Origin: Paenibacillus fonticola DSM 21315
GTDB taxonomy: Bacteria > Bacillota > Bacilli > Paenibacillales > Paenibacillaceae
NCBI RefSeq assembly: GCF_000381905.1
Contig: NZ_KB907256.1
Span: 1-64,000 of the forward strand
Length of the DNA: 64,000 nt
Reading direction: 5' to 3'
The position numbers and the translations under genes are program-made. This document shows, in pieces, positions 5,670-62,043 of this stretch (position 1 is the first letter of the stretch; each line of letters starts with the position of its first letter). The notes beneath the pieces were generated by a model, which worked only from the letters and a program-made list of their open reading frames with translations, had not been told where the DNA came from and ran no database searches.

Positions 5670-5712
5670 CTTGCCGTTACGGATAGTTCGGAGAACCGTA
5701 TTATAAGTAGGC
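5670..5712 (+). repeat. Dispersed 3'-intergenic element, copy 1 (tail block only)
   Basis: The block begins CTTGCCGTTACGG and continues with GGAGAACCGTATTATAAG. It has a nested hairpin TACGG..CCGTA. The same block, with small changes, recurs after genes at 9907, 29440, 47140, 49971 and 62010. The 290 bases that follow (to 6000) hold no gene I can support. Confidence 0.75.
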
Positions 5713-6005
5713 GAAATTTGAAGATATAAACTGATTTATTTCAATAACACTTAGCCTACCCCGCATTAGAGGAGTTGGCATAACAAGAGACATGTTGAAA
5801 AGACGAAAGACGTGTCTGGCTTATTCAGTAAACAGCGGCCTAGGCATCACGTACTACCACGATAAGGCGCTTTCTTGTGGTTCTACTAGACTTGATGATC
5901 CTGGAACCTATCACAGGCAAAACACAGCTCTCCGATTGGGTGAAGAAGTATAATAGTCATAAGAACATTCTTGAAAAAAACAGGAGTACAAAATAAGGGT
6001 AAATA

Positions 6006-6034
6006 AAGGACAGGGGCATCCGCCCTGTCCTTTC
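6006..6034. terminator. Bidirectional terminator
   Basis: A perfect 11-bp stem, AAAGGACAGGG pairing with CCCTGTCCTTT around seven bases, is flanked by A and T tracts and lies just past the end of the minus-strand aldo-keto reductase gene. Confidence 0.85.
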
Positions 6035-6082
6035 TTAAATAGATGAGGATAAACGCGTAATGAGTTATGTTTCGACCGTGGA

Positions 6083-6934
6083 TTACAGCTCGACTCTCCA
6101 GTTGCCCATCATCTTGGCGACTTCCGGATCATGGTACGATAAGAAGAGACTTTCCCGTGTATCGAGGGTCGAAATTTGTTCCATATCGTTCGCACTTAAC
6201 TCAAAATCGAAGATGTCGAAGTTTTCGACGATTCGTTCTTTGCGCACCGATTTTGGAATGACAACGACTTCACGCTGAACAAGCCAGCGCAACACGATCT
6301 GGGCGACGGACTTGTTATGTTTTTCAGCAATCGAGGTCAGCACTTCGTTGCTGAACATGTTGCCCCGTCCTTCAGCGAACGGCGCCCACGACTGGTGTTG
6401 AACCCCCTGCTCTTTCAAAAAAGCGGTGGTCTCCGTCTGCTGGTACAACGGGTGCGTTTCGATCTGGTTGACGGCAGGCACCATTTTGTTATGCACGATA
6501 AGGTCCATCAGACGGTCGGGCAGGAAGTTGCTGACCCCGATCGCCTTGATTTTGCCTTCACGGTACAGCTCTTCCATCGCTCGCCACGTGCCGTAGTAAT
6601 CGCCGAACGGCTGGTGAATCAGGTATAGGTCGAGATAGTCGAGCTGCAGCTTCTTCAGGGATTTGGCAAACGCCAGTTTGGCACTCTCGTAGCCAGCATC
6701 CTGGACCCAAATCTTGGTTGTAATGAACAGTTCTTCACGCGGTACACCGCTGCGTTTGATCGCGCGTCCGACCGCTTCCTCGTTCAAATAACCGGCGGCG
6801 GTGTCGATCAGGCGGTATCCGGCCATCAGGGCTTCATATACGGCGTTCTCGCATTCTTCAGCGTCGGGAACTTGGTAGACACCGAAGCCGATGATCGGCA
6901 TTTTCACTCCGTTGTTTAATGTTACAGTTTGCAT
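6083..6934 (-). CDS. Aldo/keto reductase
   Basis: The 283-residue protein is full length for the family and has the catalytic tetrad Asp44, Tyr49, Lys74 and His107 ([20 protein letters not shown]). The GVSNF and IPKS motifs that position NADPH are also present. It resembles the bacterial AKR5-type reductases that reduce 2-oxo aldehydes and diketo compounds in the cytoplasm. A GGAGG site lies ahead of the ATG. It is divergent from a MerR-family gene, and its promoter has a 19-bp spacer containing a dyad, so activation by that regulator in response to reactive carbonyls is likely. Confidence 0.93.
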
Positions 6935-7042
6935 GGTAATTCCTCCTATTGTTCAAATGTATATTAGCAAACGGCCGCCAACCCCGAGGGATCGGCAATG
7001 CAAAGTGGGGGCTTTCGCTTGGAGCCGATTTACTCTACAATC

Positions 7043-7073
7043 AGCTTAGAGCCTTCGTGTTACACGAAGTCAA
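7043..7073 (-). promoter_or_regulatory. MerR-activated promoter and operator for the aldo/keto reductase
   Basis: On the minus strand TTGACT (7073-7068) and TAAGCT (7048-7043) are separated by 19 bases. The spacer overlaps the palindrome CTTCGTGT-T-ACACGAAG (7053-7069), which has perfect 8-bp arms. This is the canonical MerR arrangement. Confidence 0.7.
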
Positions 7074-7111
7074 GCCATGTTCAAAAAATTATTTTCCAAG
7101 GAGGATTTCAC

Positions 7112-7561
7112 ATGCATACGGTCAAAGAAGCTGCCCAGATCACGGGACTTACCGAGCACGCTGTGCGCTTTTACACGGATAAAGGCCTGGTGCCAAGCGT
7201 ACAGCGCAATGGGAATAATATCCGGATGTTCGATGAAGAATCGATCAACTGGCTGCATGGCGTCAAATGCCTCAAGCAATCCGGGATGCCGATTGAGGTT
7301 ATAAAAAAGTACGTCGATTTATGTCTCGAAGGGGATGCGACCATACCACAACGCTACACACTCATGATGGAGCATAAAGAAGCGGCGCTCGCCAAGCTCG
7401 AAGAAGCCAAACGGCACGTTGCCCACTTGGAGGAAAAAACCGATCTTTATCAGGCTATTCTTGAGCGCCGCTCCCCGGACACGACCAATCCCGGCAACTG
7501 GGACAGAGTTCAGCATATGCATAGTGACGTATTTTACTCGCCCTCTGTTCGTAAGGCATGA
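7112..7561 (+). CDS. MerR-family regulator (AdhR/NmlR-like)
   Basis: The 149-residue protein starts at the ATG behind CAAGGAGGA; frames extending to 6998 have no signal. The N-terminal winged helix reads TVKEAAQITGLTEHAVRFYTDKGL. A dimerisation helix with MMEHKEAALAKLEEAKRHV follows at about residues 85-120. It is small for MerR and lacks an obvious metal site, as in the AdhR/NmlR group that responds to aldehydes and electrophiles. The divergent aldo/keto reductase and the 19-bp-spacer promoter between them make that gene the expected target. Confidence 0.92.
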   Translation: MHTVKEAAQITGLTEHAVRFYTDKGLVPSVQRNGNNIRMFDEESINWLHGVKCLKQSGMPIEVIKKYVDLCLEGDATIPQRYTLMMEHKEAALAKLEEAKRHVAHLEEKTDLYQAILERRSPDTTNPGNWDRVQHMHSDVFYSPSVRKA

Positions 7562-7647
7562 GGGATATTGTGTTGGAAGTACCCCCCAATTACGTATTGG
7601 GATTTTAATGTACCTATCGAAGAAGGAACATAATAACTAATTGACTT

Positions 7648-7675
7648 AAAGTCCCGATGGATATCGGGGCTTTTT
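7648..7675 (+). terminator. Terminator after merR
   Basis: AAAGTCCCGAT pairs with ATCGGGGCTTT across a short loop, followed by a T run. Confidence 0.8.
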
Positions 7676-7732
7676 CCTTGATAAGGATCGAACTCTTATT
7701 AAGAGAGGTGATTCTCCGGTTATAGTATAGAA

Positions 7733-7945
7733 TTAGTAGGCTTTGGGGCGTGAAATGCGCTCCATGATCAAAGCTGCTCTGCGCCTAGGAAGAAAACGGC
7801 CATCTGGGCCGCCATGTAAATTTTTACGCTCGTCGACGATATAGCTGCTTAACACTGCCGATTCCGCGAAATCCAGCTTCAGCCACGCTTTCCGGGGTGG
7901 ACAACGGGCTGCCTGCCGCCATTTCCCGGTATGTAAATGGCACCC
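7733..7945 (-). pseudogene. Unrecognised coding remnant
   Basis: A minus-strand frame stays open for about 70 codons and ends LIMERISRPKAY at a TAA (7735-7733). It contains LDFAESAVLSSYIVDERKNL, which looks protein-like, but it has no clear start and no family I can name. A plus-strand hairpin at 7939 (GGCACCC..GGGTGCC plus T4) lies at its 5' end. The rest of the 7.68-8.05 kb gap shows nothing. Confidence 0.25.
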
Positions 7946-7960
7946 GTTTGGGTGCCTTTT
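7939..7960 (+). terminator. Short hairpin terminator
   Basis: GGCACCC pairs with GGGTGCC around four bases and runs into TTTT. No intact plus-strand gene ends just upstream, so it may be left over from a lost gene. Confidence 0.6.
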
Positions 7961-8057
7961 GATGTCGCCCTAAAGACGATACGTTGAAAATATTGAAAAC
8001 CTAACAGGGGTGAGTGGTCATAATGGCAAGTTTTGAGCCAAAGGGTCTCGGCTGGCT

Positions 8058-9020
8058 TTAGAACTGAATAATCACGTTGCCTTTTTTACGCTCGGTCTCT
8101 ACATATATGTGGGCATCGGGCAGACGCTCCAAAGGATATCGACGATCAATCACGGCGTTCAGCGTTCCATTGTTGGCGAGTTCCATGAGAAACGTCAAAT
8201 TCGCTTTGTTCTGCATAAGCCCGGCTGCGGCAAAAACAGCCCTTTTGCCTTTTAACATAGATGTCCACATCATCTGCAACAGGATAGACAGCCCGGGTAC
8301 GGTCGTCAGATAAATTCCCTTGGCGGTGAGCACGCGCTTGCATGCCGAGAAGGAGCGTTTGCCTACAGCATCAAAAATGACATCATAGACTTTGTCCGCC
8401 TTCGTGAAATCTTCCCGGGTATAATCAATAACAAAGTCTGCCCCTGCTTTTCTCACCAGCCCCTCGTTGCCGCCAGAGCATACCCCGGTTACTTCAGCGC
8501 CATAATATTTGGCCAATTGCACCGCATAGATACCGACAGCCCCTGAGGCGCCATTAATCAGCCCTTTCTGTCCTTCCCGCAATTTCGCCTTATCTCTTAG
8601 AAACGTCAATGCGGTGGCGCCCCCGTCACAGACTGCGACGGCTTCTTCAAAGGTGAGAGTGTCCGGTATAACCGCAAGAGGGCTCTCATCGGAAAGACAC
8701 TTGTATTCGGCGTAAGCACCAAAGGTTTTGACGCTCATTCCCAAGACGCAGTCCCCTGGCTTAAATTGTTGTACTTCCTTGCCAACGGCCTCGATCACTC
8801 CAGCTAATTCGCATCCTCCAATGGCATATTTCGGCCTGGACCATCCATAGATCAATTTAATCATCGACGGATCGCCCTTGCGAAAAGCGCAATCCGACGG
8901 CCCTACTGATGCTGCCTGGATACGTATGCGAATTTCTTTGTCTCCCGGCGACGGTTCTGCGATTTCTTGCAGAACAATAACTTCCGGTGGACCATACGAA
9001 TTTTGAACCATCGCTTTCAT
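8058..9020 (-). CDS. Zinc-independent MDR oxidoreductase (quinone oxidoreductase-like)
   Basis: The 320-residue protein starts at the ATG (MKAMVQNSYG) preceded by GGAGGGGA; a longer frame to 9086 lacks a ribosome site. It has the N-terminal GroES-like fold, then a Rossmann motif in LINGASGAVGIYAVQLAK, with AKYYGAEVTGVCSGGN defining the cofactor pocket. The four structural-zinc cysteines and the catalytic zinc ligands of alcohol dehydrogenases are absent, as in the QOR/TED2 group. It probably reduces quinones or enones with NADPH. A Crp/Fnr-type regulator is divergent, so the two likely form a regulatory pair. Confidence 0.9.
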   Translation of the reverse strand: MKAMVQNSYGPPEVIVLQEIAEPSPGDKEIRIRIQAASVGPSDCAFRKGDPSMIKLIYGWSRPKYAIGGCELAGVIEAVGKEVQQFKPGDCVLGMSVKTFGAYAEYKCLSDESPLAVIPDTLTFEEAVAVCDGGATALTFLRDKAKLREGQKGLINGASGAVGIYAVQLAKYYGAEVTGVCSGGNEGLVRKAGADFVIDYTREDFTKADKVYDVIFDAVGKRSFSACKRVLTAKGIYLTTVPGLSILLQMMWTSMLKGKRAVFAAAGLMQNKANLTFLMELANNGTLNAVIDRRYPLERLPDAHIYVETERKKGNVIIQF

Positions 9021-9167
9021 GGGTGTTCCCCTCCTAACGGCAATTTTAAATACTCCTTTGCATCGGCCCTTTACAATAAGCTCCAACCGTTAGAATATGA
9101 ATAAGAGACGAGACGGAAGAGAAGGAGCTGAAGGGCACTGGCAAGGAAAAATATTTTATATAAATAC

Positions 9168-9728
9168 ATGTCGAGATGGACTTCTCTTAACGAGGAAGAT
9201 CAGCAAGCTATAATGAACGAAATTTGTACGGAGGAATTTACAAAAGGAACCGTGCTCATTAAGCAAGGAGATATCCCCACAGTATGCTATTTCATCTTGA
9301 AAGGCTGCGTAAGGCAGTATTCGCTCGATGAAGAGGGTAGAGAGGTCACGTCCAATTTTTACACCGAGGAGCAAGCCATCGCGATTTTCAATTATCACAA
9401 ACCTGACAAGTCTTCCGATTACACTTTCGTGTGTGTAGAAGATTCGGTCATGGTCGTTGGCGATCTGGATAAGGAACAGGACATGTATGACAAGCACCCT
9501 CAACTGGAATTTATGACCCGCAGGATGATAGAGGAGAACTTCAGTCAGGTCCAAGAGGAATTCGCTGCCTTTATCGCTTCTTCGCCTGAAGAACGCTTCA
9601 AGACGCTGCAAAGGAAACGCCCTTCTTTGATCGACCGGGTACCCCAACATCAACTGGCTAGTTATCTCGGCATGACTCCGGAGTCACTAAGCAGAATTAA
9701 GAAGAGAATTCACCAAGACCACCGCTGA
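9168..9728 (+). CDS. Crp/Fnr-family transcriptional regulator
   Basis: The 186-residue protein has a cyclic-nucleotide-binding-like beta-roll (about residues 15-115, GTVLIKQGDIPTVCYFILKG) and a short C-terminal HTH ([20 protein letters not shown]). It lacks Fnr iron-sulphur cysteines and a convincing cAMP pocket, as do many Bacillales paralogues. It is divergent from the MDR oxidoreductase gene. Its last 90 bases have a 94 percent identical truncated copy at 42009-42098, 32 kb away. The ATG has only a weak upstream AAGGAA. Confidence 0.9.
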   Translation: MSRWTSLNEEDQQAIMNEICTEEFTKGTVLIKQGDIPTVCYFILKGCVRQYSLDEEGREVTSNFYTEEQAIAIFNYHKPDKSSDYTFVCVEDSVMVVGDLDKEQDMYDKHPQLEFMTRRMIEENFSQVQEEFAAFIASSPEERFKTLQRKRPSLIDRVPQHQLASYLGMTPESLSRIKKRIHQDHR

Positions 9729-9761
9729 TCCGATCTTTCTATCCATGGCATACTTATGACA

Positions 9762-9805
9762 ATCCCCCTAAGTTCAAGTAATGATTACATTGTAACTAGG
9801 GGGAT
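9762..9805. terminator. Hairpin after crp
   Basis: Perfect 9-bp arms ATCCCCCTA and TAGGGGGAT, extended inside by AGTT/AACT. The following T tract is weak, so termination is likely but not certain. Confidence 0.5.
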
Positions 9806-9906
9806 GTTTACGTGCATTGACTTAAGTCAAGAGATGAGACCGGGAGTTTGATTATATTTAAAGTTTCCCTGGAATTCAGTGGAATTCTTTTCGTGTTGAT
9901 CCTAAG

Positions 9907-9959
9907 CTTGCCGTTACAGACAGGGCGGTGAGCCATTTCACAGGTAACGGCAATCTTTT
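9907..9959 (+). repeat. Dispersed 3'-intergenic element, copy 2
   Basis: It begins CTTGCCGTTACAGACAG like the other copies. Here its start pairs with GTAACGGCAA at 9942-9952 in a perfect 10-bp stem followed by a T-rich tract, so the copy itself could act as a terminator. The rest of the 9.73-10.08 kb gap is without genes. Confidence 0.7.
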
Positions 9960-10076
9960 ATAGTCAATCGCCGGCAATAGTAACGCTATTTGAAGAAAGA
10001 CTGCGGTGCCACATTAAAATTAGGGATACAAATTCGGAAATAAGGCGAGCCGTTATACCAAAGAGAGGAAGCAGAT

Positions 10077-10418
10077 TCAAGGGTGTTGGTTTTTTGCTCC
10101 CCACTCACATAGGCCTTCCAAAATAGGCAGCAGTGTCTTCGCTTTCTCTGTGAGACGGTATTCGACTTTTGGAGGAATTTGCGGATACTCTTTCCGTTCG
10201 ACGATACCGTCTTCCTCCAATTCTTTGAGTTGTGAGCTCAGTATTTTATAAGTAATGGCCCCAATCTGTCTCTTTAGATCGTTAAAACGAACCGGTTCGT
10301 TTTCTGCCAGGAGGTAAATAATTACCATCTTCCACTTCCCGCCAATGACGGATAACGTATATCCGAACGGGGTATCTTGAATATTTTTAACCTTACCTTT
10401 GTAATCCGCCATTCCCAT
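10077..10418 (-). CDS. HxlR-family winged-helix regulator
   Basis: The 113-residue protein contains GGKWKMVIIYLLAENEPVRFNDLKRQI, a typical HxlR recognition region, then the wing VEYRLTEKA. It has no N-terminal cysteine, so it is not the thiol-switch type. It is divergent from the RidA gene, which is the obvious candidate target. A GTACT motif occurs twice in the 108-bp control region (around 10467 and 10497). The last 13 codons have a near-identical orphan copy at 29148-29190. Confidence 0.92.
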   Translation of the reverse strand: MGMADYKGKVKNIQDTPFGYTLSVIGGKWKMVIIYLLAENEPVRFNDLKRQIGAITYKILSSQLKELEEDGIVERKEYPQIPPKVEYRLTEKAKTLLPILEGLCEWGAKNQHP

Positions 10419-10525
10419 CTTTACACTATCCTTTCTGATAGTATCTATCTATAAAGTGCGTACTACTTTTTTATTTATCCCTATTTTATACTAATCGTAC
10501 TTTGAGCTAAAGGAGTTAAAAAATA

Positions 10526-10915: not shown

Positions 10916-11006
10916 CACTCACGGACATAAAAAATTACCGATAGCATCGTTCCGCGAAAAGCAGAGCATCCGGCATCGATAACGAGGTAAACCTTATCAT
11001 AAAGAA

Positions 11007-11064
11007 GGGCAAGTTACTCAAAGGTAACTTGCCATTACATACAGCGCAGTGAACAGAATCAAAA
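11007..11064 (+). repeat. Terminator hairpin plus dispersed element, copy 3
   Basis: GGCAAGTTAC pairs perfectly with GTAACTTGCC across six bases. The right arm is continuous with CTTGCCATTACATACAG, a diverged start of the element's tail block. It follows the ridA gene by about 90 bases. Confidence 0.6.
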
Positions 11065-23363: not shown

Positions 23364-23364
23364 G

Positions 23365-24606: not shown

Positions 24607-24691
24607 AAACATGATATTTCTGTGCAAGAATTGCAAGGCTCCATTTTCCACCATCACCTAAAATTAAATTTGGAAGGAGGATCTGAATGGA
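24607..24691 (+). repeat. 85-bp duplicated leader, copy 1
   Basis: This stretch (AAACATGATATTTCTGTGCA onward) is about 85 percent identical to 50033-50117. In both places it ends with an AGGAGG ribosome site and the codons ATG-GAT of the next gene, although the two genes (AraC and an APH-type kinase) are unrelated. Confidence 0.85.
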
Positions 24692-25565
24692 TTGGCTGGA
24701 CCGCATGAATAACGCAATGGAATATGTCGAAACACATCTGTCTGAAGCAATCGATTACGAACAAGTGGCTAGAATTTCCTGTTGCTCGACTTACCACTTT
24801 CAGCGGATGTTCTCGTTCATCACTAATGTTACGCTGGCGGAGTATATTCGGCGCAGGCGGCTGACCCTTGCCGCATTTGAACTGCAGAACAGTGGTGTAA
24901 AGGTCATCGACATTGCATTGAAGTATGGTTACGAATCGCCTGAGGCATTTTCCAGAGCGTTCAAAAAAATGCATGGCGTGGTGCCGATGGCAGCGCGTGA
25001 CAAGGGCGTTTCACTCAAGGCCTATCCTCGGCTATCCTTTCATATTTCAATTCGAGGAGATGTGGAGATGAATTACAGAATCGAGGAAAAACAAGGTTTT
25101 GAAATGTTCGGGGTTTCAATTATGGTCAATGCCAATGGCGAGAATCCGTATGTTGAAATACCTCAATTTTGGGAGAGGTGCATTTCCGACGGAACAGTAA
25201 AGCGAATTCGTTCCGCCGCAGGTTTGGGGGAAGATGGTCAAATTCATGGGGTTTTATACAACCACCAAGGTGAGCGATTCTCCTATATGATCGGTTATTT
25301 CTTGCCTCAGAATGGCTTGTCGCAAGGGTTTGAAAAGCTTCAAATTTCCCCACAGACTTACGCGATTTTCTCTACAGGAATTAATCCCGATGGACAGAAT
25401 GATATTCATGGATTGTGGAGGCGGATCTGGGGTGAGTGGTTTCCGAGCTCTAATTACGAATTTGCAAACGGTCCCGAGTTCGAAATGACCTATGATCGAG
25501 GAAACAACATGTACGAAATGGAAGTCTGGATTCCTGTCGTTAAAAAAACAGAGTTTGCTAACTGA
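24687..25565 (+). CDS. AraC-family regulator with C-terminal GyrI-like effector domain
   Basis: The 292-residue protein starts with the DNA-binding pair (FQRMFSFITNVTLAEYIRRR and VIDIALKYGYESPEAFSRAF, residues about 20-105) and ends with a GyrI-like/AraC effector-binding domain (about 130-290, FEMFGVSIMVNANGENP). This inverted order is typical of Rob/SoxS-like sensors of small hydrophobic molecules in Firmicutes. A good GGAAGGAGG site is part of the duplicated 85-bp leader. No obvious target gene is adjacent except the decayed reductase upstream. Element copy 4 follows. Confidence 0.92.
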   Translation: MDWLDRMNNAMEYVETHLSEAIDYEQVARISCCSTYHFQRMFSFITNVTLAEYIRRRRLTLAAFELQNSGVKVIDIALKYGYESPEAFSRAFKKMHGVVPMAARDKGVSLKAYPRLSFHISIRGDVEMNYRIEEKQGFEMFGVSIMVNANGENPYVEIPQFWERCISDGTVKRIRSAAGLGEDGQIHGVLYNHQGERFSYMIGYFLPQNGLSQGFEKLQISPQTYAIFSTGINPDGQNDIHGLWRRIWGEWFPSSNYEFANGPEFEMTYDRGNNMYEMEVWIPVVKKTEFAN

Positions 25566-25572: not shown

Positions 25573-25640
25573 TGTTGAAATAACGTGGACTTAAAAGAAG
25601 GGCCATCCCCACAAAGGATGGCTTTAATCTTGCCATTACC
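25573..25640 (+). repeat. Dispersed 3'-intergenic element, copy 4
   Basis: GTTGAAATAACGTG leads to the hairpin GGCCATCC..GGATGGC and the tail TCTTGCCATTACC. The first 55 bases are nearly the same as copy 9 at 51142. The next 400 bases, up to 26040, hold no gene I can recognise. Confidence 0.8.
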
Positions 25641-26039
25641 GTTTAGTTGCGTCAAAATTGGCATTAAATTCGCATTATAGATGATATGGGCTTGCGGCAG
25701 GATCATCAAGAACAACATCGATACGAATTTTGAGTCAATACGATTATGTTCGAAATTTCATACTGGATCGTTACTTTATTGCTAATTTGAGCAAATGTAT
25801 ATGAATTTCCATATAGAAATCATAGAATCGGCCATTCGAAGGATCATTTAGTATGATTTTTCGACCACATTATACGGAACGGAAATTTGACTGAATTAAC
25901 GTAGTATGGGTGCACTTGCTGTGCTGAGGTAATAGATAGATATGGGGTGTATTGGTACACAACTGTTTAGATATACATTGCTTAAGGGATTAATTGGCGT
26001 ACCATTTTAGAGAATAATGATACAATGAGTTTACTATAG

Positions 26040-29147: not shown

Positions 29148-29190
29148 TTAAGGGTATTGGTTTTTCGCTCCCCACTCACATAGTCCTTCT
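29148..29190 (-). pseudogene. Orphan 3' end of an hxlR gene (duplicate of 10077-10115)
   Basis: On the minus strand the bases encode EGLCEWGAKNQYP and a TAA. The intact HxlR protein at 10077-10418 ends EGLCEWGAKNQHP, and the DNA is about 90 percent identical. No further hxlR sequence is present upstream. This is a 3' gene fossil placed just after the GNAT stop. Confidence 0.85.
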
Positions 29191-29326: not shown

Positions 29327-29395
29327 TCTTTATGAAGCAGCCTTTGAAAAGGTTGCTGTGATCGCGCTACGCTAAGGGATTACTATAGTTGAAAA

Positions 29396-29478
29396 AAAGC
29401 AAGATAGAAAGGGCCATCCCGTAAAGGATGGCCTTACTTGCCGTTACAGACTGCGCCAAGAACTGCATTATAAATTTG
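29396..29478 (+). repeat. Dispersed 3'-intergenic element, copy 5
   Basis: Hairpin GGGCCATCC..GGATGGCC is followed by CTTGCCGTTACAGAC and AACTGCATTATAAAT. All three blocks recur in other copies. It marks the left boundary of the murE segment. Confidence 0.85.
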
Positions 29479-31194: not shown

Positions 31195-31266
31195 CGATAG
31201 TTGAATAAAGAAGTCTCAAAGAAAAGGCCATTCCCAACGGGGTGGCCTTTAAACTTGCCATTTTAG
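31195..31266 (+). repeat. Dispersed 3'-intergenic element, copy 6
   Basis: AAAGAAAAGGCCATTCC..GGGGTGGCC hairpin followed by TTAAACTTGCCATTTTAG. It lies 40 bases after the murE stop and bounds the murE segment on the right. An extra palindrome GGAGT-TTAG-ACTCC follows at 31291. Confidence 0.8.
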
Positions 31267-41934: not shown

Positions 41935-42102
41935 CTGGTGGGTCGAGGAGGGCTTATACATACGGTTGAAGCGGTTCAGAGCGCTATAGATTATATTGAG
42001 GAGCTAATGAAACGCCCTTCTCTGATCGAGCGGGTACCCCAACATCAACTGGCTAGTTATCTCGGCATTACGCCGGAGTCACTAAGCAGAATTAAGAATT
42101 GA
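41935..42102 (+). pseudogene. Chimeric gene fossil: AraC-like helix joined to the 3' end of crp
   Basis: A frame reads [17 protein letters not shown] and continues without a stop into [20 protein letters not shown], then [10 protein letters not shown] and TGA. The second part is 94 percent identical in DNA (42009-42098) to the end of the Crp gene at 9614-9703. The first part resembles the N-terminal helix of AraC-type proteins. A short frame from an ATG near 41910 with a GGGGGGAA site runs alongside. It is a recombination product, not a plausible working regulator. Confidence 0.75.
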
Positions 42103-42150
42103 CTTTCTCCACCCCTTGGTGATATATTGTGAATACACGGTATACACAAT
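42099..42150 (+). promoter_or_regulatory. GntR/YtrA-type promoter and operator
   Basis: TTGACT (42099-42104) and TATATT (42123-42128) are 18 bp apart. A dyad with arms ATTGTGAATAC and GTATACACAAT (one mismatch, 3-base centre) spans 42126-42150, over the -10 and start site. It should be bound by the GntR protein encoded at the end of this operon. Confidence 0.8.
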
Positions 42151-47105: not shown

Positions 47106-47197
47106 CATAAGGGTCATCGCGCAAAGGATGGCCTAAAGACTTGCCGTTGCAGACAGTACGGAAAACCGTATTACAAGTAAACAGCAAGTTTTTTGTT
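47106..47197 (+). repeat. Dispersed 3'-intergenic element, copy 7
   Basis: The GGTCATC..GGATGGCC hairpin is followed by CTTGCCGTTGCAGACAG, the perfect hairpin TACGG-AAAA-CCGTA and AGCAAGTTTTTT. The outer CTTGC..GCAAG pair plus T6 gives this copy a terminator-like end. Confidence 0.88.
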
Positions 47198-47254
47198 GTG
47201 AGTGGGCATAATAGATCTATTGAGTGTGAAAGGAAGGAGCTGCATGACAAGGAG

Positions 47255-47842
47255 ATGGATCGATCCTTTGTAATCTTACCTGAAGAGCAAGCGCCTGAAG
47301 GTATAGAGCATTGTGAACTGTGCGAGCTATCCAAGCAGCGGAATCGGGTCGTCTGGGGTGAAGGAAATCCGCAAGCTTCGCTTATGATGATTTTGGATAA
47401 TCCCGGAGCCAGGGAGGATCGGGAAGGAAATTCATTTCTATGCGGTACCCGAGAAACACTCCAATTCGGCATGAGGGAAGCAGGGATAGATGTAAATGAG
47501 GTTTATGTCACTTATTTGCTAAAACGCCGACCGATGCGTGCTTATAATAAGCCTGAGGTTAGAGCCGCGTGTCTTCCTCATTTGCAGATGCAGATCTTTC
47601 AGAAGCGGCCGCTTGTACTATTTGGATTTGGAAATGTCGTGGCGGAAGCCTTATTCCCAGATAAGGAGAGTGCCGTTGTTAAGGAGTTACGTGGCAGCTG
47701 GCATGAGTTTCAGGGTACGTCTATCAGCTTCACCTATCACCCGCTTGCAGTAAGAAGACGACCCAATCTGCTAAGATTCTTCGTAGAAGATTTAAAAGCT
47801 TTGAAGGAGAAGTGGAAGGAGATTCAACACGCCAGGATATAG
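47255..47842 (+). CDS. Uracil-DNA glycosylase superfamily protein (family-4-like)
   Basis: The ATG at 47255 is the best in-frame start, although the AGGAAGGAG upstream is 15 bases away. The 195-residue protein has the UDG motif 1 (MILDNPGAREDREGNSFLCG) and motif 2 THPL-like (FTYHPLAVRRRPNL). The family-4 iron-sulphur site normally uses four cysteines. Here CELC and the C in RAACLPHL are present, but the cysteine of KCRPP is replaced (KRRPM), so the cluster may be lost or use C of FLCG. It would remove uracil from DNA. It lies between element copy 7 and the MetRS T-box. Confidence 0.85.
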   Translation: MDRSFVILPEEQAPEGIEHCELCELSKQRNRVVWGEGNPQASLMMILDNPGAREDREGNSFLCGTRETLQFGMREAGIDVNEVYVTYLLKRRPMRAYNKPEVRAACLPHLQMQIFQKRPLVLFGFGNVVAEALFPDKESAVVKELRGSWHEFQGTSISFTYHPLAVRRRPNLLRFFVEDLKALKEKWKEIQHARI

Positions 47843-47929
47843 AATGACCACTTGTTGAGGCTCACGACAATGTCGTCCAGTAGTTTTGGCGTTTGTACTA
47901 CCGCCGCAAGCCGTACCCGAATAATAACC

Positions 47930-47958
47930 TTGACTTTGGAAACGGTGTTCAGTATAAT
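47930..47958 (+). promoter_or_regulatory. Promoter of the T-box/MetRS transcript
   Basis: TTGACT (47930-47935) and TATAAT (47953-47958) have a 17-bp spacer. Transcription would begin near 47965, about 20 bases before the T-box stem I. Confidence 0.75.
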
Positions 47959-47984
47959 TTCCAATAACTTGAATAACCAAAAAA

Positions 47985-48259
47985 GCTAAGAAGAGAAAGA
48001 GTACCTTGGTGACGTCTTTTTACAGAGAGCTCCGGCAGCTGAAAAGGAGTAAAGAATAGCCTAGGGAATATGGTCTCAGAGCTGCGCATCGAAACCTCAT
48101 GTGGTTGTAGGCTGCGCCGGAACCCGCACCCGTTACTGTGCTAGGGTATAAACGCGAATAGCGTCGTACCTGAAGAGGTGAATGCCGTGAGGCATTTAAT
48201 AAAATTGGGTGGTACCACGTGAGCACAACTCTCGTCCCTTTGGGATGAGGGTTTTTTTG
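47985..48259 (+). promoter_or_regulatory. T-box leader (probably methionine) of the MetRS gene
   Basis: The leader has an AGTA S-turn at 48000-48003 and a stem I distal region with AGAGAG near 48023. GAATATGG at 48067 contains ATG at 48070-48072, the likely Met specifier. The T-box GGGTGGTACCACG is at 48207-48219. The terminator CTCTCGTCCC-TTT-GGGATGAGGG with seven T is at 48230-48259. Uncharged tRNA pairing with TGG of the T-box should stabilise the antiterminator and allow reading of the synthetase gene. Specifier placement is my reading by eye. Confidence 0.88.
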
Positions 48260-48286
48260 TGTGTCAAAAATGAGGGAGGGAATCTT

Positions 48287-49927
48287 ATGGCGAAAATATT
48301 TATCGGCGGAGCATGGCCGTATGCGAATGGTTCATTGCATCTGGGACGATTGGCAAGTTTATTGCCGGGGGATGTATTGGCACGTTATTTCCGTGCGAAG
48401 GGAGATGACGTATTATATGTGTCAGGCAGCGATTGTCACGGAACTCCTGTCGCTGTTCAAGCTATGCAGGAGGGGGTCTCGCCAGGTGATATTGCAGATC
48501 GTTTCCATCTGGAATTTGTCGAATGCTTCAATCGGTTGGGCTTCACTTATGATTTATACACGCGTACCGATCAAGAATTTCATCATCGTGTAGTTCAAGA
48601 TGTATTTCTGAAACTTCTGGAAAATGGACATCTGTATAAAAAAACTATCCTGCAGACGTATTGTGAAGTAGATCAACGATTTTTGCCAGATCGATACGTT
48701 GAAGGGGATTGCCCTGTCTGTGGTCATCGTGCCCGAGGGGATCAATGTGACTTTTGTTCAACATTGCTTGATCCAGCGGACTTGTCAGAAAAAACATGCA
48801 AAATTTGTGGCAATCCACCTGTCGAGCGCCCAACGGAGCATTATTACCTTGCATTGTCTCAATTTCAGGCTGAATTGACCCAATATGCTGAACAGGCTCA
48901 GGGATGGAAGGAAAATGCTGTCCAGTTGACCCGAAGGTACTTGGAAGAGGGCCTTCAAGATCGTGCAGCGACGAGAGATCTAACATGGGGCGTTGAAGTT
49001 CCGGTTGAAGGATTTGATGACAAGAAAATCTATGTCTGGGTTGAAGCCGTTAGTGGTTACTTGTCTGCAAGCAAACAATGGGCAAGTCAGACAGGCGGCA
49101 GTTGGGAATCCTTTTGGCTGGATGAGGAGAAGGATTTAACCGCGTATTATGTACATGGAAAGGACAATATACCTTTCCACACACTGATTTGGCCTGCTTT
49201 GCTCTTGGGAGTAGGGGGACTGCACTTACCTGATCGAGTGATTTCATGCGAGTACATGACACTAGAAGGGAAAAAGTTTTCGACAAGCCGGAATTGGGCG
49301 GTTTGGGTACCAGACATTCTGAAAAGGTACCAGCCGGACTCCATTCGCTATTTTCTGATCGCAAACGGGCCCGAGAAACGCGACACTGATTTTTCATGGA
49401 GGGAATTTATTCATAGTCACAACGGGGAGCTGCTAGGCGCGTTCGGAAATTTGGTCAACCGTACGTTGGCGTTTATCGACAAATCCTTTGAAGGTTATGT
49501 TCCTTTAGGAGAATTTAGTGAGGAATGGACAAGGTCAACCGAAGATATATATCGAGATGCTGGAGCCCTAATTGAAGAAGGCCGTCTAAAAGAAGCGATT
49601 GAATTGATTTTCACCTACGTCCGTCAAGCAAATAAATATTTTGATGAACAAAAACCATGGGTGCAAATCAAGGAAAATCGGGAGGCATGTGGACTTACAC
49701 TACATTCATGTGTACAGATTATAGCCAATCTCGCAAACTTGCTCGAACCCTTTATTCCCTTTTCATGTGAGAAAATAAGAACGTTTCTTACGCTGGAAAG
49801 ACCGAACTGGCAGTTGATTTTTGTTCCTGCTGGCTTACAGATTCATAAGTATGAGCTTTTGTTCGAGCGCATTGACGTAAGTCGGATTGAAGAAGAGATA
49901 AGTTTATTGGAGAAGCAAAAGATGTAG
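48287..49927 (+). CDS. metG: Methionyl-tRNA synthetase, two-zinc-knuckle type
   Basis: ATG 48287 follows GAGGGAGGG. The 546-residue class I synthetase has the HIGH-like GSLHLG (16-20), the KMSKS-like KKFSTS, and a connective peptide with several CxxC knuckles ([16 protein letters not shown] and CKICG). This resembles the E. coli type (MetRS2) rather than the usual single-knuckle Bacillus MetS. It lacks the C-terminal EMAP-like tRNA-binding domain, ending soon after the anticodon-binding domain. MetRS2 enzymes occur as second copies in Firmicutes and can be insensitive to MetRS1 inhibitors. Regulated by the T-box upstream. A first copy elsewhere in the genome is expected but not visible here. 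Confidence 0.94.
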
Positions 49928-49934
49928 CTGGATA

Positions 49935-50022
49935 GGGAAGGGCCATCCATTGGATGGCTCTCTTCAAAATTTGCCGTTACGGACAGCTCGGAGAACCGTA
50001 CCATAAGTAGGGCAAGTTTTTT
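49935..50022 (+). repeat. Dispersed 3'-intergenic element, copy 8
   Basis: GGGCCATCC-ATT-GGATGGCTC hairpin, then TTTGCCGTTACGGACAG, GGAGAACCGTACCATAAG and GGGCAAGTTTTTTG. Outer TTGCC..GGCAA pairs and a T6 run make this the most complete copy. It begins eight bases after the MetRS stop. Confidence 0.9.
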
Positions 50023-50032
50023 GCGGAATGGC

Positions 50033-50117
50033 AAACATGATATTTCTGTGCAAGGATTGCAAGGCTCCATTTTCCACCATCACCTAAAATGAAACTTAAA
50101 AGGAGGCATTGAATGGA
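50033..50117 (+). repeat. 85-bp duplicated leader, copy 2
   Basis: It is about 85 percent identical to 24607-24691 and ends in AAAGGAGGCATTGAATGGAT, giving the ribosome site and first two codons to the kinase gene. It starts right after element copy 8. Confidence 0.88.
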
Positions 50118-51087
50118 TAATGCAATCATTGCGCAGCATGCGCTTGCACAGTACGATATAAACGTTGTATCCGTATCGCCGATAGCTCAAAGCGGTGCTG
50201 CCGTGTTCAAAGTTGAAGATCACCAGGGATTATTATACAGTCTGCGTGTTCACGAATCTAAAATCAGTACGATTGAGAAGATGTGGATAAGCCCAGATGT
50301 GCTGGATTCCGAGTTGGTATGGCTGGATGCGCTTAATCGTGATACTGGCCTTACCGTCCCCGTACCCAAACGCAATCGGCAAGGGGCGTATGTTACGCAG
50401 GTGGGCGATATGAATTGCACTATGCTCAGTTGGGTGACAGGCGAGCAAAAGCCATACTTTACTAATAAGCAAGAAATGAAATCCACCGCTGTAATGACGG
50501 CAGCTTTGCACCAACATGCCAGTAAGTGGCAGCCGCCTTCATCCTTTATCCGTCCAACGGTTAATCGCGCACGCATACAGAATGCTCTGGACTTGCTCAA
50601 GCAGGCCGTACGGGAAGGATTATTAGATGCAAATGATGTTCAGATACTTGAAGCCGCTGGGGAAAAAGCAATGGCTCTGCTCGACACGCTCCCTAAAAAT
50701 AACTTGACTTGGGGCATATTGCACGGAGATATCATTCCTCCCAATATTGTGTATGTGGATGGGGTTGCAAACTCCATTGACTTTGGCGCGTGTGGATTCG
50801 GTTTTTTTCTCTCTGACTTGGCCATCACATTCTGTTTTATTCACCCCAATACTAGACAGCAGTACATTGATTGGTATGGAAAGCACTTTCCGCTACCGAA
50901 TGATTATGTGGTACAAATAGAAGCATTATTTATTGCATTTCGGCTAATTATGATGAGGAACGCCCTCGGTATGCCTGACGCAAACAACTGGCTGCCGATG
51001 GATGTGCAAAAGTCTGCGTCCCGTGAATTTGGCAGGTATGTAAATGGTGAAGGTTTTTTATTTTTAGGCACACCATTTTGGGAATGA
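50113..51087 (+). CDS. APH/ChoK-type phosphotransferase (aminoglycoside kinase-like fold)
   Basis: The 324-residue protein has the kinase-like catalytic signature HGDIIPPNIV with the conserved His-Gly-Asp and Asn, followed by the Mg-binding IDFGACGFG. An N-terminal beta domain carries AAVFKVEDHQGLLYSLRVH with a short GxxxxxV loop. The fold serves aminoglycoside, homoserine, choline or macrolide phosphorylation; the sequence does not decide. The ribosome site and first two codons are part of a duplicated leader. It stands alone between element copies 8 and 9, with no linked resistance or biosynthetic gene. Confidence 0.88.
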   Translation: MDNAIIAQHALAQYDINVVSVSPIAQSGAAVFKVEDHQGLLYSLRVHESKISTIEKMWISPDVLDSELVWLDALNRDTGLTVPVPKRNRQGAYVTQVGDMNCTMLSWVTGEQKPYFTNKQEMKSTAVMTAALHQHASKWQPPSSFIRPTVNRARIQNALDLLKQAVREGLLDANDVQILEAAGEKAMALLDTLPKNNLTWGILHGDIIPPNIVYVDGVANSIDFGACGFGFFLSDLAITFCFIHPNTRQQYIDWYGKHFPLPNDYVVQIEALFIAFRLIMMRNALGMPDANNWLPMDVQKSASREFGRYVNGEGFLFLGTPFWE

Positions 51088-51141: not shown

Positions 51142-51215
51142 TAGTTGAAATAACGTGAGTTCAAAGAAAAGGCCATCCCCACAAAGGATGGCCTTAAAAT
51201 CTTACCGTTACGTGA
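51142..51215 (+). repeat. Dispersed 3'-intergenic element, copy 9
   Basis: AGTTGAAATAACGTG, hairpin GGCCATCC-CCACAAA-GGATGGCC and the tail TCTTACCGTTACG. Its first 55 bases are almost identical to copy 4 at 25573, in contrast to the tail, which differs. Confidence 0.85.
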
Positions 51216-57152: not shown

Positions 57153-57190
57153 TGTCTATCCCCCGATCCCCCTTTTCACTTCCTCTAATA

Positions 57191-57605
57191 TCACCTTCCC
57201 TCCTGTATAAAGATGCCTGAATCGACTCCCGATAGCGCCACCGCTCCCTCGCCGTTATGACGATTTACCGACCCGTTTATCGCCCGGATTCGTGCAGTAT
57301 ATTGGCTGCTGATCTTGTGCAAGTCGTCCTCGACAATGTATACATCGTATATTCCCGCCAGACTGGCTATGGCCTTTCGCTCTTCCGCACTATCCGTAGT
57401 CCTAGTGGATTTTGATATCTGGACATGGTGTAGAAAACTTGATTCCGCCGCTCTTGAACTTTTGCCCCAACTCCTGCAGGTCAATGCCAACTGGACTGCG
57501 TGGAATTCCAACCACCGGAATGCCTTCCGTTTCCAAATATCGCAAATAGATATCATAACTCGGCAGCACGACCAGAATCGTTTTTATAATCGTTACGTAG
57601 AACAG
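57191..57605 (-). pseudogene. MocR/PdxR-type regulator relic (aminotransferase domain)
   Basis: On the minus strand, one frame reads YDIYLRYLETEGIPVVGIPR, then VGIDLQELGQKFKS. After a shift the next frame gives FYTMSRYQNPLGL, and a further frame gives IASLAGIYDVYIVEDDLHK. This is the central fold-type-I aminotransferase part of GntR/MocR regulators, broken by at least two frameshifts, without its N-terminal winged helix. It is divergent from an EamA transporter gene, a common MocR partner, so a regulatory link was lost here. Confidence 0.85.
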
Positions 57606-57722
57606 TATCGATAAAGTTCTGGAAATTTGTAGTTGTTGGGATCTCCATTTTGTTTTACCATTTCATGTATCAACGCCAAATCCGCGAACATGACACTCTT
57701 TTTTAAGGGGGCACTTGCTTTA

Positions 57723-58664: not shown

Positions 58665-58897
58665 GGTTAATTAAAGGAGTGAAAATATCATGTCCTGTCG
58701 AAGAAACGATCGCTTGCCCGCAAACATTCAATCAAACCGTTCAAATCATCAATGGTTTAATCAGGTGTCCTAAATCTCCTCCCTGAGACGGAGGCCATTT
58801 CCATCTGGGGCCAGTTTAAGAAACTAATATTCAAAAATACAATAAAGGTATCAATGGCATCACCTTTTTATTTCGTTCGGGAGAGGATGGTTATGTG
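58665..58897. other. Short gap between EamA and ABC genes
   Basis: It contains an AAAGGAGTG site and ATG at 58690 for a 27-codon frame (SCRRNDRLPANIQSN) that ends at 58773. An alternative frame reads PVEETIACPQTFNQTVQII. Neither is recognised; they may be a truncated gene. No other element is seen. Confidence 0.25.
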
Positions 58898-59887
58898 ATG
58901 GAGAATATTATAGAAGTACGGCGTATTAGTAAGGTGTATGGACGAAGAAAAACGAAAGAGAAGATCCATGCGGTTCGTGATGTTTCTTTCACTGTGCACC
59001 GTGGAGAGGTTGTCGGTTTATTAGGGCCCAATGGGGCGGGGAAGACATCAACGATAAAAATGCTCTGTGGTTTGCTGGAATCGGATGGGGGCTCTATCTC
59101 CATTAATGGTCTGGATATTAGTAAGAAAAGACTTAAAGCTCTAGAGCATATTAGTGCTGTATTGGAGGGGAACCGAAATTTATATTGGCGCCTTACCGTT
59201 CGGGAGAACCTGGAATACTTTGCGGGTAACCGCGGTTACTCTCGGAAGCAGGTTGCCGATCAAGCGGATAAATTGTTAGAGCAATTCAACCTGAAGGAAA
59301 AGGAGAATGAGCTGGTCAGTGGATTATCCCGGGGGATGCAACAAAAATTGGCCATCGCAGTAGCATTATTAGCTAATACGGATGTTATTCTGTTGGATGA
59401 GCCAACTCTCGGGCTGGATGTTGAAGTTAGTTATGAATTGCGTGAAATTTTAAAGACGATCGTGAAGGAAGAAAAACGTACGATTATCATTAGCTCACAT
59501 GATATGCCCGTTGTTCAGGAGCTGTGTGATCGTGCCATTATCATTAATAAAGGTGAAGTTGTCGTCGACGACAGGGTGGAGAATTTGCTTAAGCTGTTTG
59601 AAACAAGAGCATACTCAATTAAGCTGGGTGAGCAATTAAGCTTGGACCAGGAGAAGAAGCTGTTTGGCCGTTTTCCTTTAAGTATATATAAAGCAGGCTC
59701 CCATGAGTGCATTGTGGAAGTTAATTTAGAGTACAGTCAGGACATCTATGAGTTATTCGATCTTCTAAAAGAGGAAGGAACCATTGTGGAGAGCATTGAT
59801 CGTATAACCATCGACTTTGAGCAAGTGTTTATTCAGATTGTTAAGGGAGGGAAGAATCATGAAATGGCTGCACTTATTGAATGCTAA
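58898..59887 (+). CDS. ABC transporter ATP-binding protein (DrrA-like)
   Basis: ATG 58898 follows GGAGAGGA; a GTG three bases earlier is possible. The 329-residue ATPase has Walker A GPNGAGKTST, signature LSRGMQQKLAIAVAL, Walker B VILLDEPTLGLDV and the H-loop in IISSHDMPV. A C-terminal extension of about 90 residues is typical of DrrA-type exporters. It overlaps the permease gene by 29 bases. Confidence 0.93.
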   Translation: MENIIEVRRISKVYGRRKTKEKIHAVRDVSFTVHRGEVVGLLGPNGAGKTSTIKMLCGLLESDGGSISINGLDISKKRLKALEHISAVLEGNRNLYWRLTVRENLEYFAGNRGYSRKQVADQADKLLEQFNLKEKENELVSGLSRGMQQKLAIAVALLANTDVILLDEPTLGLDVEVSYELREILKTIVKEEKRTIIISSHDMPVVQELCDRAIIINKGEVVVDDRVENLLKLFETRAYSIKLGEQLSLDQEKKLFGRFPLSIYKAGSHECIVEVNLEYSQDIYELFDLLKEEGTIVESIDRITIDFEQVFIQIVKGGKNHEMAALIEC

Positions 59888-60632
59888 TTTTCGTAAGGAA
59901 TATATCGAACTGAAACGTTATCTGCCGAACACCATTGCATTAGTATTCACCTTTTATATTATTTTCTTAGCTGCATTCTTTGGCATTATGTTCATCGGTG
60001 ACCCGGTCAGTTTTGATACCAATGTGCAATATTCGATTGTAAGTGTAGCCTTCTGGAGCTTAACGATGATGACGATGAATTTCCTTGGTTATTCTGTGGT
60101 CACAGAGGCAACGCGCGGAACGTTGGAACAAATATATATGTCTCCTATGGGGGTGTGGAAAATCATGCTTACCCGCATCATTGGGCAATTTGGCATCCAG
60201 TCGGTTGTGATGGTCATCTTGCTGTTCGCTGCGATGCTTACCTCCGGGCAGTGGTTGAGTCTAAATCCATTGACGACAATCCCGATCATTGTAATTACAA
60301 TGATAAGTATGGCGGGTGTCAGCTTTATGATTGCTGGCCTTGCTGTTATCGTGAAACAGATTCAGGCATTTCTACAGATTTTCCAATTTGTATTGATGGG
60401 GCTTATCTTTGTTCCGTTAACTGCAGCTCCATTTCTAGCCTTTGCTCCATTCGTCAAAGGGGTGAATATGGTAAGAACGGTGATGATTGAAGACCTGACG
60501 CTGACTCAATTGCCTTTGGCAGACTATGCGGTCTTAATCTTAAATTCGCTGGTATATTTATTTGCAGGGCTTTTTGTATTTCATCTCTGCGAAAAAATAG
60601 CGATGAAGAAAGGTCTGCTTGGACAATACTAA
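59859..60632 (+). CDS. ABC-2 type permease
   Basis: The ATG at 59859 follows AAGGGAGGGAAG inside the end of the ATPase gene. The 257-residue protein has six membrane segments (LPNTIALVFTFYIIFLAAFF is the first). The ABC-2 signature TRGTLEQIYMSPMGVWKIML supports the assignment. It forms a two-gene exporter with the ATPase. A methyltransferase gene and an Asp/Glu racemase gene follow in the same direction at short distance. Confidence 0.92.
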   Translation: MKWLHLLNANFRKEYIELKRYLPNTIALVFTFYIIFLAAFFGIMFIGDPVSFDTNVQYSIVSVAFWSLTMMTMNFLGYSVVTEATRGTLEQIYMSPMGVWKIMLTRIIGQFGIQSVVMVILLFAAMLTSGQWLSLNPLTTIPIIVITMISMAGVSFMIAGLAVIVKQIQAFLQIFQFVLMGLIFVPLTAAPFLAFAPFVKGVNMVRTVMIEDLTLTQLPLADYAVLILNSLVYLFAGLFVFHLCEKIAMKKGLLGQY

Positions 60633-60676
60633 CACTCGTCTTAGTTTTCGTATGAGGGTGGATTGGAGAGATAGGA

Positions 60677-61279
60677 ATGGCAAATACGGATAAGTTTGAA
60701 ATGATAGCTAACATGTATGATACGCCTGAAAGAATTCAAATCGCAAAGGTATCGTCTGAGGCGATCCGTGAATATGTAGTTGACGCTAAAAGTAAAAATG
60801 CTGTTGATTTTGGCTGTGGAACGGGTCTTGTCGGAATGAACTTGTTAAATGAGTTTCATTCCATGCTTTTTCTGGATACCTCACCAAACATGATTCATCA
60901 AGTCAAGCAGAAAATTTCGGATTTTAATATTCGGAATGCAGATACATTGTGCTTTGATTTTGAACAAGAAGGTTTATCGGATTTACATGCTGACTATATT
61001 TTTATGGCCCAGGTTCTCCTCCATATTCCTGATGTTGAATTCGTTTTATCCAAATTATTCGATGTTCTAAATGACGGGGGACATTTACTAATTGTAGATT
61101 TTAATAAAAATGAGAATATCGTTTCAGATATCGTTCATAACGGATTCCATCAAGATGAGCTATCCGGCATGATGACGAAAATCGGGTATAAAAACATTCA
61201 ATCCAAAACTTTTTATCATGGAAGTAAAATATTTATGGGACAAGACGCATCGATGTTTGTTCTCGATGCCCAGAAGTAA
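60677..61279 (+). CDS. Class I SAM-dependent methyltransferase
   Basis: The 200-residue protein has the SAM-binding motif AVDFGCGTGLVGMNLL (about 40-55), the acidic post-motif LFLDTSPNMI, and LLHIPDVEFVLSKLFDVLND downstream, typical of Methyltransf_11 proteins. AGGA precedes the ATG. It lies 44 bases after the ABC permease gene and 19 before the racemase gene, consistent with one operon. The acceptor is unknown. Confidence 0.9.
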   Translation: MANTDKFEMIANMYDTPERIQIAKVSSEAIREYVVDAKSKNAVDFGCGTGLVGMNLLNEFHSMLFLDTSPNMIHQVKQKISDFNIRNADTLCFDFEQEGLSDLHADYIFMAQVLLHIPDVEFVLSKLFDVLNDGGHLLIVDFNKNENIVSDIVHNGFHQDELSGMMTKIGYKNIQSKTFYHGSKIFMGQDASMFVLDAQK

Positions 61280-61298
61280 CGGGTGGGGTGAGTAGGTA

Positions 61299-62000
61299 GT
61301 GAAAACAATAGGGCTTATTGGCGGCATGAGTTGGGAATCATCCATGCTCTATTACCAAATCATCAATGAGAAGGTAAAAGAAAGGAAGGGTGGTCACCAC
61401 TCAGCAAAGAGTCTGCTGTATTCCGTAGATTTTCAAGAAATCAAGGACCTCCAGCATCAAGGGAATTGGACAGAGGCTACGAAGCTTATGATTGAATCGG
61501 CACAGAAACTGGAAGCAGGCGGAGCCGATGTCATAGTTATATGCACGAATACGATGCACAAGATGGCACCCGAAGTGATGAACTCGGTATCGATTCCTTT
61601 ACTTCATATTGCAGATGCAACAGCAAATAAAATTGTTAGCGATAAAATAAAGAAGGTAGCTTTGTTAGGGACTGCCTTTACTATGGAGCAGGAATTTTAC
61701 AAGGGTAGGCTGATCAATCAGTTTGGACTTGAGGTTGTTGTACCGGATGAAGCAGATAGGGTAGTCATTCACGACATCATTTATCACGAGCTTTGTCTTG
61801 GAATTATAAATGAACATTCAAAGAAAAGATATCTAGACATCATTGACCGTCTTATCCGAAAGGGAGCGGAAGCTGTTATTCTCGGATGTACGGAAATCAC
61901 AATGCTCATCTCCCAAGAAGACTGTAATATCCCGATTTATGATACAGCACGGCTTCACGCCGAGGCTGCCGTTGATTTTGCGTTAGGAGACGAGGAGTAA
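61299..62000 (+). CDS. Aspartate/glutamate racemase-family protein
   Basis: A GTG start follows GGGGTGAGTAGGTA. The 233-residue protein has both catalytic cysteines of the family, in ICTNTMHK and ILGCTEI, and the N-terminal IGLIGGMSWESS motif typical of PLP-independent aspartate racemase-like proteins. It interconverts L- and D-acidic amino acids or a related compound. It is the last gene before element copy 10. Confidence 0.93.
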   Translation: MKTIGLIGGMSWESSMLYYQIINEKVKERKGGHHSAKSLLYSVDFQEIKDLQHQGNWTEATKLMIESAQKLEAGGADVIVICTNTMHKMAPEVMNSVSIPLLHIADATANKIVSDKIKKVALLGTAFTMEQEFYKGRLINQFGLEVVVPDEADRVVIHDIIYHELCLGIINEHSKKRYLDIIDRLIRKGAEAVILGCTEITMLISQEDCNIPIYDTARLHAEAAVDFALGDEE

Positions 62001-62006
62001 AAGTGA

Positions 62007-62043
62007 AGCTTACGTTATGGACGCTCGGAGAACCGTACCAGAA
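62007..62043 (+). repeat. Dispersed 3'-intergenic element, copy 10 (partial)
   Basis: GCTTACGTTATGGACGC, then CGGAGAACCGTACCAGAAC. It starts six bases after the racemase stop and lacks the GGCCATCC hairpin. Confidence 0.7.

Follow-up and report, generated by a model that had tools for sequence, protein, structure and literature searches.

Chromosomal integrons hold co-oriented recombination sites between small cassettes of varied cargo, and arrays of this kind that lack their recombinase are known as CALINs (clusters of attC sites lacking integron-integrases). Staphylococcal cassette chromosome (SCC) elements, including SCCmec, composite and pseudo-SCC, share with the locus analysed here a target at the 3' end of rlmH, a TATCATAA core, terminal inverted repeats, Ccr large serine recombinases and tandem composites, as described in the available parts of PMC6222049 and PMC10061031. 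The Enterococcus cassette chromosome (ECC) likewise has the rlmH site, ccrAB and attachment (att) sites of about 50 bp with dyad symmetry and TATCATAA; its elements measure 21-78 kb, with fewer than five att matches per genome, and tandem ECCs with several ccrAB were not observed according to the available part of that report (PMC6222049). SCC-like islands with a PolA-SSB primase in Bacillota are also inserted at rlmH, and a composite in Paenibacillus pinistramenti carries more than one rlmH-end repeat (PMC10061031, available part). Composites of SCC elements have already been described, one of them in Paenibacillus. Here we analyse the first 64,000 bases (1-64000, "the window") of contig C12 (NZ_KB907256.1; 176,559 bp) of Paenibacillus fonticola DSM 21315, whose 6.3-Mb genome (G000) comprises 62 contigs. 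An earlier reading of the bare letters, the original prediction, had noted ten copies of a dispersed element in this window. The copies are, in all likelihood, the attachment-site junctions of a tandem array of SCC-type cassettes inserted behind rlmH, and the window would represent a distal part of that array in partial decay.

Sequence comparison shows a site family with an rlmH core, a location and orientation that follow rlmH, half-sites that are independent of each other, breaks in homology at the sites, cassettes common to different species and, between species, a filled/empty site pair whose insert bears Ccr. The site is an imperfect dyad of about 56 bp centred on GAACCGTATCATAAG, with the core motif TATCATAA and imperfect inverted repeats. 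This GAACCGTATCATAAG core corresponds to the final codons of rlmH (...INRGEPYHK*), and the 3' end of rlmH matches the core and the right half of the site. In 14 genomes (G036 placed among them by homology), the site at the head of the array coincides with the end of a gene terminating in ...INRGEPYHK*, identified as rlmH by PF02590; in G025 the rlmH end was not detected by the R1 profile. R1 is a sequence profile built from 69 sites, all in regions hand-chosen as clusters, and the alignment of these sites spans 60 columns with the right-part consensus CGGTGAACCGTATCATAAGTAGGG. The dyad is real, since 60.4% of the cells are paired across the 69 sites compared to 33.5-40.4% on sliding. No covariation between the arms was detected in the same sites (60.1% paired when shuffled; score 0.163 versus 0.159), which points to independent half-sites and not to a folded hairpin. 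Independent arms are as would be expected if different cassettes bring each arm and a recombinase dimer binds the duplex. Folding of single copies gave strong z-scores (copy 7, -6.1; copy 8, -3.8), which result from the dyad together with the upstream hairpin, and an RNA reading was dropped because the arms do not covary over the 69 sites. A likeness of the core to domain V of group II introns was also considered, and was dropped once rlmH accounted for the core.

The location and orientation of the sites follow rlmH. In Paenibacillus (at least 150 sites, counted among the matches listed), the listed sites that share a contig with rlmH and lie no more than 150 kb from it number 98, all of them downstream of the gene and none upstream, with 96 of the 98 in its orientation; one more is the rlmH end itself and seven lie far off on the rlmH contig. 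Sixteen closed genomes of other genera, chosen for having matches and lying outside the R1 training set, contain 139 distinct sites, namely 11 rlmH ends, 62 downstream of rlmH, none upstream and 66 elsewhere. All 62 downstream sites, found in 15 of the 16 genomes, are co-oriented with rlmH, and 3.2 would be expected under uniform placement along such a stretch. Closed relatives show the same uniformity, with co-orientation of 24/25 sites in 120 kb of G010, 12/13 in 60 kb of G030 and 10/10 in 100 kb of G036. Of the 52 units with an open reading frame (ORF) in seven other arrays, 34 have the ORF that precedes the site on the plus strand and 18 on the minus strand, indicating that site orientation tracks rlmH and not the adjacent gene.

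In the window's own genome, rlmH lies at C25:71375-71848 and is followed by sites on C25. C25:91018-92889 and C12:444-1762 map side by side, with a slight overlap, on the closed genome G036 (one ends at 5,560,817, the other starts at 5,561,096), and the final ~3 kb of C25 do not map to that G036 region. Linking the two contigs by G036 synteny alone, we infer that C25, with rlmH, joins C12, with the window. The window would then very probably continue the rlmH array, starting at least roughly 24 kb from rlmH.

Co-oriented site clusters distant from rlmH were seen in G154, G126, G089 and G167. The last of these (G167:C1:3285029-3310477) has a second site array whose start lies downstream of a duplicated piece of the rlmH 3' end, suggesting that an rlmH end moved elsewhere can give rise to another array. 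By eye, short pieces of the rlmH 3' end were recognised within arrays as well, at L040:13904-13963 (G010) and L106:11224-11283 (G001), as if some units carried an rlmH end.

The 54 units delimited in seven arrays have a median length of 3.1 kb, with 19 of 0.5-1.6 kb and 4 of 13.6-22.1 kb; ORFs of at least 70 aa were called mechanically, and three weak sites are possibly spurious, in which case they divide units that belong together. Homology between genomes ends near sites in 40 of 332 cases, compared to a shifted mean of 5.0 and a maximum of 13 in 2000 shifts, eight times the chance rate. Whole units are shared with their ends within 3 bp of sites: a 1407-bp single-ORF unit in G010 and G015 (98.1% identical, ends at most 2 bp from sites; rlmH 76.8%), a 1907-bp unit in G035 and G036 (99.2%; rlmH 96.8%) and a 4952-bp unit in G000 and G036 (98.7%). 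By eye, one cassette start stands behind differing cassette ends in four pairs. In G000, the 4952-bp unit abuts rlmH; in G036, the two are separated by a 9-kb unit that has two CcrB-family matches, one of them in a short 282-aa frame. The check for empty sites in relatives proposed with the original prediction was thereby borne out between species, G000 being empty and G036 filled at rlmH, and the two genomes form a precise filled/empty pair. Proteins scanned from small units (ten, one cassette twice) comprise AAC(3), APH, AraC-Cass2, WYL, IMPase and RibD-like members, and three of the ten had no Pfam match. Single-gene units of the G010 array (L041) carry aminoglycoside 3-N-acetyltransferase-family [AAC(3)], APH-family and AraC-Cass2 genes; APH-like and AraC-Cass2 genes are found in cassette units of the window too.

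In 10 of the 39 genus genomes, PF07508 recombinase genes are located no more than 30 kb behind rlmH. Nine of these ten also have a listed site further along, and in each of the nine the first such site comes after the nearest recombinase. Five recombinases of G020, G019 and G032 have CcrB as their best NCBIfam match (253-438 bits over 414-499 residues), and the next non-Ccr family reaches 131-164 bits. Judged by these profile scores, they are of the Ccr family, not SCCmec CcrB, and are distant from SCCmec Ccr. PDB sequences matching one G020 recombinase were other serine recombinases, none of the 16 being named Ccr. A PF07508 match occurs in 2 of the 54 units, the first units of G020 and G021. 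The first unit of G020 encodes two large serine recombinases, a D5-type helicase and a family-A polymerase, and SCC-like primase islands have the same two large serine recombinases, helicase and PolA (PMC10061031, available part).

We propose that autonomous SCC-like elements carrying Ccr-type large serine recombinases would dock directly at rlmH, and that Ccr would recombine pairs of sites as double-stranded DNA, whereby units could be added, removed or swapped and cassettes would accumulate one after another behind rlmH. At each junction, the left arm would represent the end of the upstream cassette, the core the last codons of rlmH and the right arm the start of the next cassette. Recombinase-less units, which are the majority in the arrays examined and in many cases comprise no more than two genes, occasionally with a terminator of their own, would need to be moved in trans. 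We infer Ccr to be the recombinase that works on these sites, presumably in trans and presumably to this day.

Several observations weigh against this interpretation. The core is absent from three of the ten window copies (25573, 31195 and 51142), and on the window genome's own two contigs homology ends near sites in 4 of 58 cases. The unit shared by G000 and G036 is barely closer (98.7%) than rlmH (96.8%). The genus location test is partly circular, as the R1 training sites came from chosen clusters, and 44 of the 150 listed genus sites, including those of the window, come from contigs other than that of rlmH or from a genome that lacks an rlmH call; in the other genera, 66 of 139 sites are far from rlmH, many of them in co-oriented clusters. 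As for the recombinases, G019 has a further recombinase gene past its first site, and the equivalog cut-off for SCCmec CcrB (NF047343, 900 bits) was not reached, the best score being 438 and none of 12 genomes exceeding it. Neither C12 nor C25 in the window's genome carries a Ccr-like gene, a CcrB-family match is absent genome-wide in G030 and G033 despite long arrays, and G010, also with a long array, has only a weak one (a 274-aa frame, E 1.9e-8). The cassettes of G030, G033 and G010 could move in the proposed way only with a visiting SCC-like element.

Alternatively, the arrays could be the fossils of successive full-size SCC insertions whittled by deletion, with the small units as remnants that never moved singly. 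The decayed and half sites of the window, the occurrence of the four 13.6-22.1 kb units alongside small ones and the long arrays in genomes without a recombinase gene are consistent with such a history. We nevertheless consider it unlikely, because whole small units are shared with both ends at sites (the 1407-bp and 1907-bp units) and identical cassette starts follow different cassette ends. An integron-type attC array, in which a tyrosine integrase acts on folded single strands, would also present single-gene cassettes, uniform orientation, dyad sites of about 56 bp and Cass2-type cargo. This is highly improbable here, given that the arms do not covary, that the consensus has no GTTRRRY/RYYYAAC boxes and that none of the 43 PF00589 matches in G000, G010, G030, G033 and G036 lies in arrays or on C12/C25.

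The original prediction had suggested a terminator module copied by gene conversion, a small mobile element or cassette ends. The last was right, although the kind of cassette, SCC/Ccr, was not named. The terminator idea holds only for hairpins upstream of some sites, with a perfect hairpin (score of at least 12, at most 64 nt upstream) at 19 of 86 sites compared to 1 of 430 random stretches (plus-strand sites, E < 0.01, rlmH junctions excluded). One class of cassette tail has the GGCCATCC hairpin as its terminator; by eye, in the listed examples, this hairpin is paired with an ACTTGCC arm, and GGCACCC-type hairpins are paired with a TTTCGC arm. For the element itself, a terminator spread by gene conversion is scarcely credible, even with all ten window copies following a plus-strand gene: the conserved core is rlmH coding sequence and not a hairpin, the preceding ORF is often antisense, and the sites are placed behind rlmH. 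A dispersed element resembling repetitive extragenic palindromic (REP) sequences, bcr repeats or miniature inverted-repeat transposable elements (MITEs) would explain a short imperfect palindrome in many copies, some far from rlmH. However, 5 of the 7 matches with up to two mismatches in the own genome fall in the window, the sites track rlmH in location and orientation and cluster in one orientation, and homology between genomes breaks at them, which makes such an element extremely improbable. The integron, terminator and REP readings are already contradicted, by the absence of covariation and of an integrase (IntI) at the arrays, by location and core, and by clustering, respectively.

The site family is widespread. 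BLAST with one copy, which recovers only some sites, found the element in 25 of the 40 genus genomes, counting that of the window. R1 matched in 39/39 genus genomes and in 141 of 148 family genomes, not all of them arrays, as a match may be the rlmH end itself; at least 10 matches were found in 31 of the 148. The maximum was 37 matches per genome (G010), 25 of which, or nearby sites, lie in one 120-kb stretch. In a class sample searched with this Paenibacillus-trained model, 81 of 200 genomes had a match, and the three with at least 10 all belong to the window's family. A strict pattern excluding most rlmH ends matched at least 118 stretches in named genomes; the 80 listed are mostly from Paenibacillus or Cohnella, with others from Alicyclobacillus, Neobacillus, Alkaliphilus, Romboutsia and Enterococcus. 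A viral sequence collection gave one match, on one contig.

Returning to the window, the tail block of the original prediction is real, with 6 matches (up to 3 mismatches) against 0.12 expected and none of 100 shuffles reaching 6. The ten copies reported there are borne out in part, as four full sites, one moderate site (copy 3) and two degenerate ones (29435 and 62013); the other three retain a hairpin and a partial left arm without a core (Table 1). The hairpin said to be common to all is not, copies 1, 2, 3 and 10 lacking GGCCATCC. All ten do lie on the same strand, each after a plus-strand gene, but this carries little weight, as 47 of the 62 window genes used are on that strand and (47/62)^10 = 0.06; nor did the supposed tie between orientation and the adjacent gene hold in the seven other arrays.

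Table 1. Junctions, cassette tails and bounded units of the window (positions are those of the window).
Position	Strand	Feature	Evidence or content
5664..5723	+	Full junction (att site): left arm, rlmH-like core GAACCGTATTATAAG, right arm	R1 43.3 bits at 5666-5719, E 1.3e-12 in window
9901..9960	+	Full junction, closes unit beginning 5724	R1 35.9 bits at 9904-9959
10976..11054	+	Site 10976-11015 and second left arm 11025-11054	R1 19.3 bits (site), 11.9 bits (second left arm)
25573..25689	+	Cassette tail, GGCCATCC hairpin, partial left arm, possible left half-site 25664-25689; incomplete, coreless	
29386..29474	+	Tail, hairpin and degenerate site with core GAACTGCATTATAA	R1 9.1 bits at 29435-29474, E 0.07; tail similarity
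31195..31262	+	Tail, hairpin and partial left arm	G035/G036 homology starts at its end, 31259
47106..47193	+	Hairpin and full junction	R1 37.5 bits at 47136-47190; G035/G036 homology starts 47125
49935..50023	+	Hairpin and full junction, best copy of the window	R1 49.1 bits at 49965-50022, E 2e-14
51142..51215	+	Cassette tail, hairpin, partial left arm; core missing	
62013..62043	+	Degenerate site directly 3' of Asp/Glu racemase-like gene	R1 9.9 bits at 62023-62040, E 0.04
5724..9900		Unit bounded by two full sites	Aldo-keto reductase, MerR, ADH, CRP-like genes
47194..49963	+	Unit bounded by two full sites	UDG-like ORF, T-box-led methionyl-tRNA synthetase gene

The first junction begins where an HxlR gene (5273-5665) ends, and the sites at 9901 and 10976 flank a unit of about 1 kb with HxlR on the minus strand and a RidA-like gene on the plus strand (Pfam). 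The possible left half-site at 25664-25689 (R1 6.3 bits, E 0.53) is not significant alone. The gene content of the window is mixed, including HxlR, CRP, MerR and AraC/Cass2 regulators, RidA, GNAT, APH-like, beta-lactamase-like, MATE, EamA, ABC and UDG genes and the methionyl-tRNA synthetase gene, whose T-box leader (47979-48242) precedes it within one unit; at the gathering threshold, Rfam found this T-box and nothing else in the window. The AraC-Cass2 and APH-like genes have in common an 86-nt leader (91% identical) and a tail of about 89 nt (83%) on either side (24607-24692 with 25573-25640; 50033-50118 with 51142-51215), as if two different genes had been placed in one cassette frame. Two direct repeats were also noted, one of 103 nt (91% identical) at 9608-9710, the end of the CRP-like gene, and 42003-42105, upstream of an ABC transporter gene, and one of 40 nt (93%) at 10079-10118, the 3' end of an HxlR gene, and 29150-29189, just after a GNAT gene.

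In comparison with known systems, the locus differs from SCC in its number of sites, with up to 37 profile matches per genome (G010), in its many 0.5-1.6 kb units without ccr and in recombinases distant from SCCmec Ccr. What look like a new feature are the long arrays of small, mostly recombinase-less, often single-gene cassettes. A full-text literature search, with subscription journals mostly outside it, found no description of such arrays, nor do the available parts of PMC12033364, PMC6222049 and PMC10061031 contain one; the last, on primase islands, describes neither small-cassette arrays nor independent half-sites in that part. These arrays would allow study of the way in which SCC elements, among them the staphylococcal carriers of resistance, collect their cargo, and make SCC cargo capture directly testable in harmless soil bacteria. 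With chromosomal integrons they share co-oriented sites, small cassettes, varied cargo and recombinase-less arrays comparable to CALINs, and they differ in using a (presumed) serine instead of a tyrosine recombinase, double-stranded half-sites and the end of a core gene as platform, with 86 of 222 unit ORFs antisense (seven arrays). It is quite conceivable, if on balance slightly doubtful, that they are the serine-recombinase counterpart of a chromosomal integron, in which rlmH serves as platform for a Paenibacillaceae-wide pool of mostly recombinase-less single-gene cassettes with modular half-sites, reshuffled in trans by the Ccr of visiting SCC-like elements. Such arrays would give soil Paenibacillus an integron-like store of exchangeable genes, and if the units move singly, the integron principle has evolved a second time with an unrelated enzyme.

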